DNA of 38,683 nucleotides. It comes from an uncultured Treponema sp. (GTDB lineage Bacteria; Spirochaetota; Spirochaetia; Treponematales; Treponemataceae). A program made the translations under genes and the position numbers. Positions 22,495 to 30,111 of this stretch are shown piece after piece. The number at the start of each line of letters is the position of its first letter. The stretch's first letter is position 1. The notes under the pieces were generated by a model that was not told the DNA's origin, did no database searches, and was given only the letters and a program-made list of their open reading frames with translations. The stretch spans positions 1-38,683 of the forward strand of contig CAMHIV010000004.1 of NCBI GenBank assembly GCA_946185185.1, in the 5' to 3' direction.

Positions 22495-24615
22495 CTAGTC
22501 CTTTCGTCTTACTTCGAATTCTATCTTCGGATTTTTTACAACCGAATCCGCCCGCTTTTTATATTTTTTATAAAGATATTCCTGCGCCCTGAAAGGCTTT
22601 GCATCTTTTGCTGTTTCAATTTGAGCCCACTGACCATTTTCCTTAAGTTCAAGAGCATTTTCTGTATCCTTAAAATAAACTTCAAGGATTTCTTTTACTT
22701 CCTCAAACACTTTTGAATCAAGAATCGGGAACATAAGTTCAATGCGGCGGTCAAGATTTCTAGACATCCAGTCTGCACTGGAAAGATACAATTCTTCATC
22801 GCCGTCATTCTGGAAATAGAAAATGCGTGAATGCTCAAGATATCGGTCGACAATAGAAACAACGCGGATGTTTTCGCTAAGCCCCGAAATTCCTGGAACC
22901 AGCATACAAACTCCACGGATATTCAAAAGAACCTTTACACCTGCCTGACTTGCTTTGTACAGGGCTTCAATAATTTCTTCGTGAGTAAGAGCGTTCATCT
23001 TTGCCATGATAAGTCCCGGATGCTCCGGCGTACTGCGTTCAATTTCACGCTGAATCATAGAAAGAAGTTTTGTTTTTAAAGTAACCGGTGCCATTCCCAG
23101 CTGCTTCATGGACTGCAAGGTTGAATAACCCGTTACAAGGTTAAAGAAAAGACTTGCATCGTTTACAATTTCATAATTTGAAGTAAACAGAGAAAGATCC
23201 GAATAAATCTTTGCGGTCTTTGGATTATAATTTCCGGTTGCAAGATGCGCATAGCGTCTGATAGAACCATTTTCGCGGCGCATAACCATTATAATCTTTG
23301 CATGAACCTTTAAATTTACAAGCCCATAAATTACCGTTACACCTGCGTTTTCCAGCTGATGGGCGCGGGCAATATTTCGTTCTTCGTCAAAACGAGCTTT
23401 TAATTCTACAAGAACAACAACCTGCTTTCCTTTTCGCGCAGCACGTTCCAAAGCCGCAACAATAGGAGAATCCGTACCAGTTCTGTACAAAGTCATTTTT
23501 ATTGCAAGAACTTTAGGGTCGTCAGCCGCATCATTTATGAATTTTACTACAGGTTCATAAGATTCATACGGAACGTGCAAAAGAACATCGTGCTGCTTAA
23601 TAGTGTCCCAGTAAGGTTCATCTTCCGGCAGAGAATCAGGGTAATATTTTTCCCATTCAGGGAAGCTCATTTTTCCGTCATCAATTTCCCGCAGGCCCAT
23701 TAAAACACCTGGATTTACGATATCTTCGACCTTGTATACATCGTCATCCTCAAGTTCAAGTTTTTCCATCAAAAAGCGGGTAATTTTTTCACTGGTCTGA
23801 TTACAAGTCATCTGAACCGGAAATGAACTTTGTCTTTGAACGAGAACTTTTTCCATCTCGTTTACAAAATCCCTTCCGGATTCTTCATCAACTGCAAAAT
23901 CAGCATCCCGGGCAATTTTAAAAATCAATGTTTCTTCAACTGCAAAACCAGGGAAAAGCTGAGTTCCGTACTGAGTAATAATTTCTTCGATAAGTGCAAA
24001 ATCTTTTCTGCCGCTTTCACTTGGAAGCCACAAAATCTGCGGAATTCCAGAAGGAATTTGAACAAGCGAAATTCGATCTTCTTCGTCGCTTCCCTTTAAA
24101 ATTTCATTTGCATTTCGAATACCTGAAATCGGTTTTAAAAGGAAAGCCGCATACAGAGAAAGATTTCCGATGTGAGGAAAAGGTTCTGTATCTGTTCGAA
24201 GCGGCGTTAAAAGCGGGAATAATTCCGAAAGGAAGAAATTCAGAGCATAATCACTTTGCGACGCCGAAAAATCAGCCGGTTTTACATAGCAGATATTTTC
24301 TTTTGCGAGACTTGGCAAAATATCGTTTTTAAGGCAGTTATGCTGCTCCCGAATCAAAAGATGAGATTTTGCAGAAATCTGCTTGAGCACCAGCTCCGGT
24401 GTAAGCCCCGAAACATCCTGCAATGAAGGAGAATTATCCAGCATTCGTTTTACAGAAGCTACACGAACCTGGAAAAATTCATCAAAATTCGAAGTTACAA
24501 TGGAAAGAAACTGAAGGCGTTCCAAAAGAGGATTTTCTTTTCTCAAGGCCTGATGCAATACACGACCGTTAAATTCTACCCAGGAAAGTTCTCTGTTAAA
24601 AAATCTTGATTCCAT
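22495..24615 (-). CDS. ppk1: Polyphosphate kinase 1
   Basis: 706 aa. 'FFNRELSWVEFNGRVLHQA', 'YAHLATGNYNPKTAKIYSDLSLFT'. Confidence 0.95.
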   Translation of the reverse strand: MESRFFNRELSWVEFNGRVLHQALRKENPLLERLQFLSIVTSNFDEFFQVRVASVKRMLDNSPSLQDVSGLTPELVLKQISAKSHLLIREQHNCLKNDILPSLAKENICYVKPADFSASQSDYALNFFLSELFPLLTPLRTDTEPFPHIGNLSLYAAFLLKPISGIRNANEILKGSDEEDRISLVQIPSGIPQILWLPSESGRKDFALIEEIITQYGTQLFPGFAVEETLIFKIARDADFAVDEESGRDFVNEMEKVLVQRQSSFPVQMTCNQTSEKITRFLMEKLELEDDDVYKVEDIVNPGVLMGLREIDDGKMSFPEWEKYYPDSLPEDEPYWDTIKQHDVLLHVPYESYEPVVKFINDAADDPKVLAIKMTLYRTGTDSPIVAALERAARKGKQVVVLVELKARFDEERNIARAHQLENAGVTVIYGLVNLKVHAKIIMVMRRENGSIRRYAHLATGNYNPKTAKIYSDLSLFTSNYEIVNDASLFFNLVTGYSTLQSMKQLGMAPVTLKTKLLSMIQREIERSTPEHPGLIMAKMNALTHEEIIEALYKASQAGVKVLLNIRGVCMLVPGISGLSENIRVVSIVDRYLEHSRIFYFQNDGDEELYLSSADWMSRNLDRRIELMFPILDSKVFEEVKEILEVYFKDTENALELKENGQWAQIETAKDAKPFRAQEYLYKKYKKRADSVVKNPKIEFEVRRKD

Positions 24616-24629
24616 TCTCTCCCTCCAAT

Positions 24630-26159
24630 CTACGCCAAAATAATCTTGTAGCCAAATACTGACTCAAAAAGCTCACCCTTTTCTTCAAGGGCAAAACGTT
24701 CCAAAGCAAGATTTTTTATTCCCGGCGTACTAATCACCAGACTGTCGCCCTTTAACTTAATATTCAAATCCGAAAGAACACGCCCGTGACTTCTATCCAA
24801 AGCATCCGCTATTCGCAAAATTGCGGTCAGCTTAAGAATCTGCATTCGGTCACTTCGCGGCAAAATCTGAAACTGTTCACTATCCTGTGGCTGCTGTTTA
24901 CCTCGATGATAACGGGCAATTGTTGCAACTATAATATTTTCAGTTCTAGTAAGCCCGAAAATTTCAGAATGGCGGATAATGTATTCTCCGTGTTCCTGAT
25001 GATTACTCATGTTGATGAAGTTTCCGATATCGTGCAAAATCGACGCAACTTCCAGAAGAAGCTTAGAACGTTCGTCGAGAGAAAGTTCATTTTCAAGGCT
25101 CGCATACAGCTTCAGTGCATTCTGGCGTACATGTTCGGCGTGAGCTTCATCGCCATGGTATTTTCTGAGCAGGTTTACAGAGCTTGCAATTATCTGCTCG
25201 TTAAATTCATTTTTAAGTTCTTCGCTAGGATTTTTTGTCTTGCTTATAATAAGACCATCACGAATATTTGTTTCCGGAACAATAATAGTCTTTACCTGGG
25301 AATGATGAATAAACATCTTGTAAATCAAAAGACTAAGCGGAAGTGTAAGCGCATCGTTGTAAGAAATTTTGAATCTGGCAACACATTCGTCTACTGAATA
25401 AGTCTGTATTTCATCTACAAACCGGTCAAAATCTTCCCTTTCGATTGCCCAAAGCCAGGTAGAAATTGGTTTACCAACATTGATTGCAGAAAGAGTTGCA
25501 TCCGAACCAACCGCGATAAACTGTTTTGTTTCCGAAATATTAAGTTCGCTTTCAAAAAGTCCTTTGGCGTTTATTGTATATTCTTCGACATACCGCTGAA
25601 TATCTTCGAGATTAGTTGTCTGACCACGCATTTTTGGCGCAAGTCGAACGGTTCCCAAATGCAAACTATGAGCACCGGCCATTTTACCGTTTTTCATAAG
25701 CATAACTTCGGTTGAACCGCCGTTTACTTCCAGAATAACGGCATCTTCAAAATGGAATGTCCGATTTTCATCCTGCAGACATTCGGTAACTGCAAGATAC
25801 ATAAGACGGTTTTCTTCAATTCCGTCGATTACTTTAACTCTGAATCCGGTTGAAGAAAAAATCTTATCCATTACCGGATCTTTATTACTGGCTTCACGGA
25901 AAGCGGAAGTGGCAATTACATTTGTTTGTTCAGGAGTGATTCCCCAGCCGGCAAGCTGTTCCTTGTATCGCTGGAGAATATGAAGGCATTGAGATTGGGT
26001 TTCGCGTGCTATCGTACCAACTGTAAAAACATCGCGTCCGAGAGGAACAGGCATTTCAGAACGGTCAAGAACATTTCTCTTTCGGTCTTCTGTAAATTCT
26101 GCAACAAGCAGACGCACACCAGTAGAACCGATTTCAATAACAGCTTCTGGAGTAGCCAT
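24630..26159 (-). CDS. Ppx/GppA phosphatase with C-terminal HD domain
   Basis: 509 aa. 'VIEIGSTGVRLLVAEF', 'EVNGGSTEVMLM', 'LHDIGNFINMSNHQEHGEYII'. Confidence 0.92.
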   Translation of the reverse strand: MATPEAVIEIGSTGVRLLVAEFTEDRKRNVLDRSEMPVPLGRDVFTVGTIARETQSQCLHILQRYKEQLAGWGITPEQTNVIATSAFREASNKDPVMDKIFSSTGFRVKVIDGIEENRLMYLAVTECLQDENRTFHFEDAVILEVNGGSTEVMLMKNGKMAGAHSLHLGTVRLAPKMRGQTTNLEDIQRYVEEYTINAKGLFESELNISETKQFIAVGSDATLSAINVGKPISTWLWAIEREDFDRFVDEIQTYSVDECVARFKISYNDALTLPLSLLIYKMFIHHSQVKTIIVPETNIRDGLIISKTKNPSEELKNEFNEQIIASSVNLLRKYHGDEAHAEHVRQNALKLYASLENELSLDERSKLLLEVASILHDIGNFINMSNHQEHGEYIIRHSEIFGLTRTENIIVATIARYHRGKQQPQDSEQFQILPRSDRMQILKLTAILRIADALDRSHGRVLSDLNIKLKGDSLVISTPGIKNLALERFALEEKGELFESVFGYKIILA

Positions 26160-26189: not shown

Positions 26190-27620
26190 TTACAACTTAT
26201 CAATAAGCATAGAACACTTTCCGCTTGGGATTGGGAGTGTTTTCTTCTTTTGATCTATAATGTTGATTGTAAAGTAGTAAAGTTTTTCGCTTTCCATCTG
26301 GATTTCCCAGCCACGCGGACTCTTGTTACTCAAAATTGTAATAAGGTTGCGTTTGAGGGAAAGATTTTCGATTCCCATGATTTCGAGGTTTGGAATAATC
26401 CAGTCTACGGTCTTTCGTGGCAAACTGATAGAAAGGCCAATTACGTTTTCAATCATGAGTGCAATTGTAGAAAGCCCTGTTGCAGCAAGAAAATGTGCTC
26501 TTGGGAAAGTTGTAGAACCTTCCATTGTTGCCATTTGAGCACTTGCCGGTTTGTATGCTTCAAAAACATCGCCTTTCTGATTTTCGTCGGTAGGCATAAG
26601 ACCTTCCAAAACGAAATAAAGGTGACGGATTGAACATTCGCGTGCAAGTTCGTATTTCTGATACTTTTCAAGACCTTTTACAATAATAAAGTTGAACATC
26701 GGGAAAACGCTTCCGCAGAACCCTTCGCCATTTTCGCTGAATTTTGCGCTGTCAGCAGAAAGTGATGGGAACGGATGTTCTGTTCCAAAGGTAGCCGGAT
26801 TCATAAGATGAGCAATCAAAGTTTCTGATTTGTCGGCACTTGGAATTTCAGCAAGAAGTGGCCAGAAACCGGCAATTGTTTTTTCCGGAAGCCTATTCAT
26901 ATCTTTGTCGAGATCGTGATAGAAACCTGTATCGTTATCCCACATCATCGAATTGATTCGAGTTTTCAAAGAGAAGTAGTTACGACGATACTGGAAGCTG
27001 AGTTCCTTGTCATTTAAAATATCTCCAAGGGCAGACATGTGCGCACAGTTGATTGCCATACAAGCGTTAAAATCAACCGGATAACATGTTCCTTCACGAG
27101 GAGCATTAAACATTGTACTTGCTGTTGCAGGAACTGCATAAAGTCCGTTTTCCTGCTTAAACGTAGCATCAATCCAGGAAATATACTTCTGCAAAACAGG
27201 CATTATTTCCTTGATGCGTTTTTTATTAGCTGATTTATGATAAAGATTGAACTCTGCCCATGCAAACAATGGAAGTCCAATTCCTTCCGGATTGTCTGAT
27301 GAAAGTATCGGTTCATTTGTCTTTGTGTCGTATCTCCACCGAATTGCCCCGTTTTCTTCCTGCTGCTTGTAAAAATAATCGATGTTCAAATTTGCATCGT
27401 AATTCCTGTTGGAATAAACTAGAAAGAATGAGGACAAAATAGATTCAAACTGGTCTATGACTAACTTATCTCCCTCTGGATACATAAAATAACCGTCAGC
27501 AGTTTTTTCTCCTGTCTTCGGGTTGAGCCAATAATCCGATAGCATAGTCCAAGTTTTGTTGTAAATGTCTACAAAATCCTGATCATAGAAGTGGATTTTT
27601 GGAAAGTCGTGTTTGTTCAC
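26190..27620 (-). CDS. Trehalase/MGH1-like (alpha/alpha)6-barrel glycoside hydrolase
   Basis: 476 aa. 'GIGLPLFAWAEFNLYHKSANK', 'YPVDFNACMAINCAHMSALGDIL' and 'MMWDNDTGFYHDLD', characteristic of GH37/GH63-like barrels. Confidence 0.7.
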   Translation of the reverse strand: MNKHDFPKIHFYDQDFVDIYNKTWTMLSDYWLNPKTGEKTADGYFMYPEGDKLVIDQFESILSSFFLVYSNRNYDANLNIDYFYKQQEENGAIRWRYDTKTNEPILSSDNPEGIGLPLFAWAEFNLYHKSANKKRIKEIMPVLQKYISWIDATFKQENGLYAVPATASTMFNAPREGTCYPVDFNACMAINCAHMSALGDILNDKELSFQYRRNYFSLKTRINSMMWDNDTGFYHDLDKDMNRLPEKTIAGFWPLLAEIPSADKSETLIAHLMNPATFGTEHPFPSLSADSAKFSENGEGFCGSVFPMFNFIIVKGLEKYQKYELARECSIRHLYFVLEGLMPTDENQKGDVFEAYKPASAQMATMEGSTTFPRAHFLAATGLSTIALMIENVIGLSISLPRKTVDWIIPNLEIMGIENLSLKRNLITILSNKSPRGWEIQMESEKLYYFTINIIDQKKKTLPIPSGKCSMLIDKL

Positions 27621-27724
27621 AAAAACTCCTAAAATTTCTATTGCGCATAGAGCAACAATTTTATCTAGTATATCACATTTTCAATTAAAACGGTATAATT
27701 TTCAAACATTTTAGGAGATTTTCT

Positions 27725-30073
27725 ATGTATCAGTCCTTTGTTTATGTAGAAGCGAGAATACAATTACCGCCAGTTTCAAGCGTTTTTATCACAGACGAAA
27801 AAACTCACAAAATAAATATAAATACTCAGGTTCTTCAACAGGTTTATGTTTTGGCAAAGGCTCTGGAATGTAAAATTTCTACAATTTCAGACATTGAACA
27901 CATTACTAATCTCCCGCAAAACCTTGAAGACGGAAAAAAGATTACCGGCTATTCTGTGCGGATTGCAGAAAACGGCAAACTGAATCTGCGCTTTCACAGC
28001 CACCAGAAAACAATTTTAATAGAAGAAGTTCGCATCGAAGAAGATTTAGGACGCCTTACCCATGCAAACGGTAATACACGCATGGATTATTCCTGTGCCG
28101 GTTATCCTAGTATCAGAATCCGCACCCAGTCCAGTTTTGAACTTGGGGAAGAAGTTCACATTTTCCTTGATGAACTTCGCCGTCTGACTCAGTATCTGAA
28201 CATTTCAAGCGATATGTACAAAGACGGTTCCATCCGCTGCAATGCCTATGTTGCTCTTTCAAAATATCCTGCTCTTCCAGACTATTATGTAAAGCTCAGA
28301 AACCTGAATTCCTTCAACTTTGCTCGAAAAGCAGTAAATCACGAGCTTACCCGCCAGGAAAACATGCTTTCTGCCGGCGAAAAAATTTTGAGCGAAAGCC
28401 GACTTTGGAATGAAGCAAAATCATGCACAGAATCCTTTCAGGAGCGCGATGTAAACAGAATCCGATTTGAACACTTAAATCCGCCTCAGACAATAAATCT
28501 TGAAAGCGCCGAAAAGGATTTGCTTTCCGCAGAAAATTTTGAACTCCCGGAACAAAGGCGACAACGACTTAAGAAACAGTATGGAGTTAGCCGATTGCGC
28601 TCAGAATTCCTCTGCGATACAAAGGAACGCGCTGACTTTTTTGAAAAAACCTGTGCTCTCGGCGCAAATCCGTTGAATGCCGCCCACTGGATGGCAAGTG
28701 AATTGATGCGCCTATTAAACAAATCAAATCTTTCACTCAAAAAATCAAAAATCACGGAACAACATTTTGCATGGATTATTAAACAACTGGATTCAAGTGA
28801 AATTCACAGTGCAACTGCAAAAAAACTGCTTCGGGCGTCTTTTGAAACCGGTCATTCACCTGAAAAATTGATGAAAACCCTGAACATCAGCGAAATCAAC
28901 AGCGAAAAAGAACTGCTTCCGTATGTTCAAAAAATCATCGCCGAAAATCCGGAACACTGCAAAAAACTTAAGAACGGAGAAATGGCACCTCTTGAAAGCC
29001 TTACCGGTCTTGTAATGAAAGAAACAAGCGGCAAGGCCGTTCCTCAGGTTGTAAAATCTCTTCTGAAAAAAGAATTAAATATCAGCGTAATTTACACAAT
29101 TACTACCGGAGGCGCAATTTCTGCAATCCGCCATCAGGACGGAACAATTTCCAGCGGAGATTCTTCAGAACTTAAACACATTGTAAAACGCATTTTTCCG
29201 GATACACCAATTCAGTTTACTTCCGCAGGTCAGTATCTTAGCGAAGAACTGGAACCTTATAACTGGGCAGATTTGATTTCAGAAATTGCACTTCGAATCA
29301 ACGCCGGAACTGCAAGCGGTATCGTTGTAACGCACGGAACCTACACTCTTTCATATACAGCGGCATTACTTTTCTGGCTTTTCAGTGATGCAGACGTACC
29401 AATCGTTATCACGGCAAGTTCCACACTTCCTTCTGAATCCATGGAAGCGGAAACAAACCTTCGGCTGGCAATAGAAACTGCCGCAGAAAAGAAAGGCGGA
29501 GTATATGTTGTTTTTGAAGGAAAAATTCTTTCGCCTCTGAACCTGCACTTTGACCGCCCGGGCAACTTCTGCAACTGGAACCTTGCCGAAGCAAAATTCA
29601 AAGAAAGTGGTCCGATTGCAAATGTATTCAATGGAATCGGCGAACTGGATACCGAAGTACTGGGAAAAATCCTTGTTGAAGCCAGCAGCAAAATGTTCAT
29701 GTGCAGGCTCTATCCTGGCTTTAGAAGTGACCTTTACAAAGATATCCTTAAATATTCAAAAGTTCATTCAATCTTCTTGGAAATGTACGGAATTGGCTCG
29801 GGAAATATAACAGACAGTGATTTTTCGCTAAAGCCAATGCTTCTTGCAGGAAACAGACGCGGAATTCGTTTTTACTGCACCAGCCAGCAGAAAATGGCTC
29901 TAGACTTTTCGCAGTATGTAACCGCTCATGGCGTCTGGCGTGAAGGTGCCGTACCAATGGGATATCTTACAACAGAATCTGTAATCGCTTTGTATTACGC
30001 CTGTTCAATCTGCGCCGATAATGACCAGGAACTAGATGAATTAATGGAACAATACGCTTCGATATACAGCTAG
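27725..30073 (+). CDS. Fusion protein: GatB/GatE-like domain + GatB/YqeY tail + asparaginase (GatD-like) domain
   Basis: 782 aa, SD AGGAG upstream. GatB-like 'VRIEEDLGRLTHANGNTRMDYSCAGYPSI...LRRLTQYLNISSDMYKDGSIRCNAYVAL...VKLRNLNSFNFARKAVNHELTRQ...SRLWNEAKS'. YqeY-tail-like 'VQKIIAENPEHCKKLKNGEMAPLESLTGLVMKETSGKAVPQVVKSLLKKEL'. Then asparaginase-like 'VIYTITTGGAISAI...GIVVTHGTYTLSYTAALL...PIVITASSTLPSE'. Confidence 0.88.
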   Translation: MYQSFVYVEARIQLPPVSSVFITDEKTHKININTQVLQQVYVLAKALECKISTISDIEHITNLPQNLEDGKKITGYSVRIAENGKLNLRFHSHQKTILIEEVRIEEDLGRLTHANGNTRMDYSCAGYPSIRIRTQSSFELGEEVHIFLDELRRLTQYLNISSDMYKDGSIRCNAYVALSKYPALPDYYVKLRNLNSFNFARKAVNHELTRQENMLSAGEKILSESRLWNEAKSCTESFQERDVNRIRFEHLNPPQTINLESAEKDLLSAENFELPEQRRQRLKKQYGVSRLRSEFLCDTKERADFFEKTCALGANPLNAAHWMASELMRLLNKSNLSLKKSKITEQHFAWIIKQLDSSEIHSATAKKLLRASFETGHSPEKLMKTLNISEINSEKELLPYVQKIIAENPEHCKKLKNGEMAPLESLTGLVMKETSGKAVPQVVKSLLKKELNISVIYTITTGGAISAIRHQDGTISSGDSSELKHIVKRIFPDTPIQFTSAGQYLSEELEPYNWADLISEIALRINAGTASGIVVTHGTYTLSYTAALLFWLFSDADVPIVITASSTLPSESMEAETNLRLAIETAAEKKGGVYVVFEGKILSPLNLHFDRPGNFCNWNLAEAKFKESGPIANVFNGIGELDTEVLGKILVEASSKMFMCRLYPGFRSDLYKDILKYSKVHSIFLEMYGIGSGNITDSDFSLKPMLLAGNRRGIRFYCTSQQKMALDFSQYVTAHGVWREGAVPMGYLTTESVIALYYACSICADNDQELDELMEQYASIYS

Positions 30074-30084
30074 TTAAAACAAAA

Positions 30085-30111
30085 AAAGCTGGATATAAAA
30101 ATCCAGCTTTT
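30085..30111. terminator. Bidirectional intrinsic terminator-like hairpin
   Basis: AAAAGCTGGAT (30085-30095) and ATCCAGCTTTT (30101-30111) form an 11-bp stem with A/T tracts, between convergent genes ending at 30073 (+) and 30140 (-). Confidence 0.85.

Follow-up and report, generated by a model that had tools for sequence, protein, structure and literature searches.

A gene of an uncultured Treponema sp. joins a GatB-like half with replaced catalytic motifs to an asparaginase-like domain that lacks its nucleophile. We read this gene as an ancient paralog of a long form of GatB specific to spirochaetes, probably reprogrammed as a sensor or regulator without catalytic activity, and put the probability of this reading at about 0.55. 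The gene is carried on contig CAMHIV010000004.1 of assembly GCA_946185185.1, within the 38,683-nucleotide stretch of DNA that was analysed and is called the window below. An earlier note on this DNA had described the fusion and taken it for a double pseudoenzyme; its observation is confirmed and its interpretation is supported in part.

The open reading frame is real and encodes 782 amino acids, with the Pfam domains in the order that had been proposed: GatB_N (residues 32-242, 1.7e-30), GatB_Yqey (304-451, 1.5e-37), Asparaginase (456-604, 1.1e-23) and a weak Asparaginase_C match (659-774). Against GatB models the protein scores 266 bits (NF004012, cut-off 338) and 244 bits (TIGR00133, cut-off 314.8), missing both, and its asparaginase half reaches 89 bits with the type I model and 79 bits with that of GatD. 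An AlphaFold model of the protein (mean pLDDT 83, pTM 0.56), a check that the note had proposed, matches GatB structures over residues 1-452 (9a6e_A, 7.1e-39; 3ip4_B, 1.2e-36) and also matches asparaginases (4q0m, 4.1e-18; 1wls) and GatD (1zq1_A), with a Foldseek probability of 1.00 for both folds. The window protein therefore has the same three-part fold as bacterial GatB over residues 1-452; unlike bacterial GatB, it falls below every GatB cut-off, has replaced metal and phosphate motifs, carries an extra C-terminal domain and is encoded without an adjacent gatA or gatC.

The host genome, a Treponema-like assembly that is 85% complete, was also checked for gatCAB as the note had suggested, and it encodes an ordinary separate GatB (contig C230 of G000), GatA and AsnRS. 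Neither gatA nor gatC was found among the neighbours of the window gene, and gatA is on a separate contig. The fusion is the sole asparaginase-fold protein of this genome. No RNA families were found within the window. A second GatA-like amidase of ~500 aa is present in the same genome (G000:C58:4516-5898) and at 168 bits lies below the GatA cut-off.

Table 1. Features of the window and residues at the substituted sites (family counts refer to the 56 dead copies defined in the text).
Feature	Position	Strand	Evidence or residue counts
GatB/YqeY/asparaginase-fold fusion gene, 782 aa	27725..30073	+	ORF, Pfam, orthologs
GatB cradle (GS-fold), residues 1-250, catalytic motifs substituted	27725..28474	+	Pfam GatB_N
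Helical part and YqeY tail, residues 304-451	28634..29077	+	Pfam GatB_Yqey 1.5e-37
Asparaginase-fold domain, residues 456-782, nucleophile-less	29090..30070	+	Pfam; Foldseek 4q0m, 1wls, 1zq1_A
Arg11 codon (GatB His of Ex[EH] motif, Mg ligand)	27755..27757	+	R 56/56; H in all live GatB
Arg103 codon (GatB His of HLEED)	28031..28033	+	R 56/56
Arg131 codon (GatB Glu of LIEIVTEPD, Mg ligand)	28115..28117	+	R 53/56
Asn173 codon (GatB Asp of RCDAN)	28241..28243	+	N 55/56
Lys190 codon (GatB Glu of ExK)	28292..28294	+	K 56/56
Ala464 codon (asparaginase nucleophile Thr, TGGT to TGGA)	29114..29116	+	dead copies A 46, S 5, T 4, V 1 of 56; live long GatB A 37/37
Tyr540 codon (Asp of HGTD), window clade only	29342..29344	+	Y 6/56, D 50/56
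His608 codon (catalytic Lys), window clade only	29546..29548	+	K 47, H 6, R 3 of 56
Divergent MGH1-like/trehalase-like glycoside hydrolase, conserved neighbour	26190..27620	-	
Ppx/GppA-type phosphatase, conserved neighbour	24630..26159	-	
Polyphosphate kinase, conserved neighbour	22495..24615	-	
Sigma-70-like promoter match 5' of the ATG	27672..27699	+	no better than chance
11-bp stem between fusion gene and efp, terminator-like	30084..30111	.	called on - strand

The fusion was found in 49 of 247 genomes of the Treponema order, from three families, with one copy (in G064) broken, and searching 395 phylum genomes and 398 class genomes with a profile recovered it in many more families, all inside the class. 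An alignment of 57 fusion copies from the Treponema order, 41 loci of other orders and 55 ordinary GatBs cleanly separates two kinds of fusion, live long GatB proteins and dead copies, the latter being every copy of the Treponema order but L114, 56 in all. The dead copies form one clade in both halves (SH-aLRT 100 in the better-model subset), and in the domain tree their asparaginase half nests within the live long forms; the tree of the GatB half came from a quick search and has long branches, which makes its clades more secure than its deep order. All GatB-fused asparaginase-like domains of spirochaetes form a single clade that excludes AnsA, AnsB, the other asparaginases and one GatD-like protein, which makes one fusion event the simplest account of these sequences. 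The spirochaete long-GatB family is defined here by a GatB half joined to an asparaginase-like domain of this clade, and the window protein has both. Stand-alone proteins of ~165 aa with only the asparaginase N-domain (ITGGTFDK...HGTD) and no C-domain occur in two genomes, as L163 (G045:C1:1048773-1049222) and L164 (G187:C93:217471-217920), and short N-domain matches akin to these are present in G305 and G321.

The changes that the note had listed at Arg11, Ala464 and Tyr540 lie where it had placed them, and the catalytic lysine for which it saw no clear candidate corresponds to His608; in the Lys608 column, phmmer aligns the lysine exactly to the Lys of RTSK and MAFFT is one column off. Substitution of both catalytic centres extends to the family, with the GatB-half motifs replaced in 56/56 dead copies and the asparaginase nucleophile Thr in 52/56. 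Across orthologs, the GatB changes and the change of Thr to Ala are family-wide, whereas HGTY and Lys to His are limited to a T. porcinum-like clade. Likewise, the zinc Cys segment that had been described as unrecognisable is indeed absent from the window clade but is present in many family members.

We compared 97 live GatB halves with the 56 dead ones over residues 1-451 in an unbiased scan. Of the positions invariant in live proteins, the dead copies keep 25, show relaxation at 39 and carry a different but constant residue at nine (H11R, H103R, E131R, D173N, G182P, E190K, I191L, K192R and T225S). The asparaginase half has no switched sites, and 48 invariant residues are common to its live and dead forms. 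Carboxylate-amine ligases carry the motif Ex[EH] in strand 1, acidic residues in strands 2 and 3, [HD]x[NH] in strand 4 and Ex[RK] in strand 6 (Iyer et al., PMC2588565); the dead family has E-x-R, E105 and E106 together with Arg131, mostly N-x-Y, and K-x-R at these places. Yeast GatB coordinates Mg2+ through H36, E156 and E186 and contacts ATP through E34, T189, N230 and S232 (PMC4027206). When mapped by motif spacing, H11 and E131 correspond to H36 and E186, both arginine in the dead family, and the E156 equivalent is kept, as are E9, T134, N193 and N195, which correspond to the four ATP contacts. The switches H11R, H103R, E131R, D173N, E190K and K192R cover nearly all metal and phosphate motifs while the predicted ATP-contact residues stay fixed. 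This pattern, with two metal ligands exchanged for arginine beside a kept E156 and four kept ATP contacts, argues for an altered mode of ligand binding and against a simple loss of function.

The asparaginase of E. coli, AnsB, has the triads T12-Y25-E283' and T89-K162-D90, and its ligand is contacted by S58, Q59, G88, T89, D90 and E283' (PMC8460627). Equivalents of S58, G88, T89 and D90 are kept in most family members, where the pocket residues are Ser506, Glu507, Gly538, Thr539, Asp540 (50/56) and Lys608 (47/56). The window protein retains Thr539 and has otherwise lost the second triad (Asp to Tyr, Lys to His), which is intact in most other family members. Like type I L-asparaginases (AnsA, 4q0m, 1wls), the family has the fold and most of the pocket residues; unlike them, it has a replaced Thr and a fused GatB, the Tyr-loop is not recognisable in the window protein, and the window clade has lost Asp and Lys as well. 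By their titles, crystal structures 5dnc, 7c8x and 6pa9 hold Thr to Ala or Val asparaginase mutants with intact Asn bound, and the activity of human ASPG depends on the equivalent Thr19 (PMC5443537). By analogy, a domain that binds its ligand without hydrolysing it is a reasonable proposal for most members. The loss of Asp540 and Lys608 weakens the case for amino-acid binding by the window protein itself, and in its subclade the ligand may differ or have been lost. Alanine at the nucleophile position appears, on the asparaginase tree, to be ancestral within the fused clade and Thr or Ser to be secondary; catalysis could persist in the nine members that carry Thr (four) or Ser (five). The four Thr-bearing copies are from Treponemataceae (L100, L104, L112 and L113, in G221, G166, G153 and G240) and keep the remaining residues of that triad.

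These residues bear on two rival readings. In one, the fusion is an enzyme of altered chemistry: either its GS-fold site, now lined by Arg and Lys, works on a nucleotide or acyl-phosphate substrate in the absence of the usual metals, or its asparaginase site has another nucleophile, such as the Ser or Thr of the nine members. The ATP-contact residues, E105 and E106 are invariant or nearly so and most members have an intact triad of the T89-K162-D90 type, yet the Ex[EH], [HD]x[NH] and Ex[RK] motifs have changed along with two of the three metal ligands, conservation points to no alternative nucleophile, Ser466 being variable, and the window clade is also without the triad Asp and Lys, so we hold such an enzyme to be very improbable. 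The other is a structural adaptor that senses no small ligand, with the asparaginase fold serving for dimerisation or as a scaffold, and the dead GatB binding GatCAB, AspRS or tRNA. The asparaginase part is strongly conserved outside its pocket, asparaginases form intimate dimers (PMC8460627), and several live GatB lineages have lost the domain cleanly without a separate asparaginase gene, no split asparaginase gene being found beside a domain-less GatB. However, S506, E507, G538, T539 and D540 rank among the best-conserved residues in live and dead forms alike, and the GatB pocket switched to specific, fixed residues instead of relaxing, which leaves the adaptor an unlikely though credible account.

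The earlier note had taken the domain order for the two subunits of archaeal GatDE placed on one polypeptide. A GatB/E-type protein is indeed paired with an asparaginase-type one in both, but the window protein is a single polypeptide, is without the AspRS-like domain inserted in GatE and has lost its nucleophile. GatD needs its asparaginase nucleophile, and the GatD-type set Thr-Thr-Asp-Lys reads Ala464, Thr539, Tyr540 and His608 in the window protein. A GatDE origin is ruled out by the scores (65 bits against the GatE model versus 266 against GatB), by the missing GatE insert and by the domain tree, in which the fused domains form a clade separate from a single GatD-like outgroup row; these sequences suggest that the fused domain arose separately from GatD. 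One genome from the spirochaete phylum encodes a 461-aa GatD-like protein, L174 (G305:C109:20532-21101).

Live long GatB proteins of other Spirochaetia orders have all catalytic positions intact (H11, H103, E131, D173, E190 and K192), score 521-568 bits as GatB in their GatB halves (cut-off 314.8), and are the only GatB in 18 of the 25 genomes tested. In their loci gatA is directly upstream in 33/36 and an archaeal-type AspRS is directly downstream in 32/36; one of these AspRS genes, at the L114 locus, reaches 478 bits against the model of aspartate--tRNA(Asn) ligase (cut-off 353). These loci resemble gatC-gatA-gatB-AspRS operons that serve tRNA-dependent asparagine formation; the genomes tested also carry AsnRS. 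A second, archaeal AspRS was acquired for this purpose by Deinococcus/Thermus (PMC4206432). As in the asparagine transamidosome (ND-AspRS, GatCAB and tRNA-Asn), live long GatB goes together with GatA, GatC and an archaeal-type AspRS in its operons; the window gene, by contrast, stands outside any such operon. One genome of the Treponema order, G187, carries both a dead copy and a live long GatB, the latter in a gatA-gatB-AspRS operon (L114:8315-10762, G187:C53). The other live GatBs examined in the family of G187 belong to the GatB lineage of L114 and have no asparaginase-like domain. The domain of L114 branches deep, and copying from the dead paralog is ruled out. Ordinary GatBs with long frames were also considered as additional fusions and were rejected, their added length being upstream run-on.

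The ordinary GatB of Treponemataceae is of a different lineage, common to other classes and to the second GatB of family f80. This lineage differs from that of the native spirochaete long GatB, an observation made at G000:C230, L121-L123, L195, L250 and L251. The f80 genomes G613 and G625 carry both GatB lineages, as if caught mid-replacement.

Dead copies are divergent from an MGH1-like glycoside hydrolase gene in 47/57 loci, often followed by Ppx/GppA and then polyphosphate kinase, and live gatCAB operons are divergent from the same hydrolase in 25/36 loci, several of the others being contig ends. Since both adjoin the hydrolase, the dead copy appears to occupy the old gatCAB position. A functional tie between fusion and hydrolase is unsupported, as the hydrolase is present in 225/247 genomes of the Treponema order with or without the fusion; the adjacency is inherited gene order and no evidence of a common function.

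Our preferred reading of a paralog turned sensor or regulator starts from long GatB as a working GatB in gatCAB operons, its asparaginase-like domain already without a nucleophile. A second copy at the hydrolase-adjacent position in the Treponema order has neither gatC nor gatA beside it and has exchanged its Mg and phosphate ligands for Arg, Lys and Asn, with the predicted ATP contacts kept and the asparaginase-like half retained without any fixed change. The GatB pocket may now bind a nucleotide or other polyphosphate, arginines taking the place of Mg2+, and the asparaginase-like pocket may bind an amino acid (Asn, Asp or similar) that is not hydrolysed. The states of the two pockets would control a helical and tail part holding tRNA or a translation partner; in the window subclade the amino-acid pocket has changed further and its ligand may differ. 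The earlier note had held the tRNA-binding parts to be well kept, but the tail is no better conserved than the remainder, identity to ordinary GatB being 24-27% in every part, helical/YqeY tail included, and tRNA binding by the tail is for this reason something that we infer. A protein that still binds tRNA or GatA/GatC would fit the kept GatB shape and tail and the presence of GatA in 15/15 genomes tested; it is improbable, however, as the tail is not specially conserved, the fusion gene has no GatA/GatC adjacent to it, and inherited partner contacts would be mismatched in Treponemataceae, which use a GatB of another lineage.

A more specific form of the sensor reading is doubtful: a translation sensor with three inputs, produced when an amidotransferase subunit was duplicated and reprogrammed, in which the GatB pocket would read a polyphosphorylated nucleotide such as (p)ppGpp or Mg2+-free ATP, the asparaginase pocket an amino acid, and the tail would bind tRNA. 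If it were true, free asparagine would be sensed in the live parent, a GatCAB, by the pseudo-asparaginase on its GatB. In many spirochaetes the GatB of tRNA-dependent amidation seems to bear such a domain, which is apparently undescribed, as is a duplicate in the Treponema order in which a near-whole metal and phosphate site has turned into fixed basic residues while the predicted ATP contacts and the second domain stayed constant. Live parent and reprogrammed copy lend themselves to direct comparison, both for the passage from translation enzyme to regulator and for a tuning of GatCAB by free asparagine. The folds and the route from enzyme to pseudoenzyme are already known; the combination and the extent of the active-site exchange were not found described. 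No GatB-asparaginase fusion or domain was found in the open-access literature, most subscription papers being outside the search, and the papers searched hold no description of an asparaginase-like domain on the GatB proteins of transamidosomes.

All three parts of the window protein are under strong purifying selection, with dN/dS of 0.01-0.16 in the cradle, the helical/tail and the asparaginase parts, and the window clade is like the others in this (Nei-Gojobori estimates, with dS saturated for several pairs). Relatives at 55-94% identity are from Treponema sp. and T. porcinum, and close ones among them, L032-L035 (72-94%), share the substitutions of the window protein. Sequencing error and a decaying pseudogene are ruled out by these common substitutions and by a low dN/dS, about 0.02-0.1 in each of the three parts. 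The fusion gene is nevertheless dispensable, since many Treponema no longer have it and the G064 copy is broken. The broken copy, L111 (G064:C21:43099-45448), is interrupted by in-frame stops beside an intact glycoside-hydrolase gene and is a recent loss.
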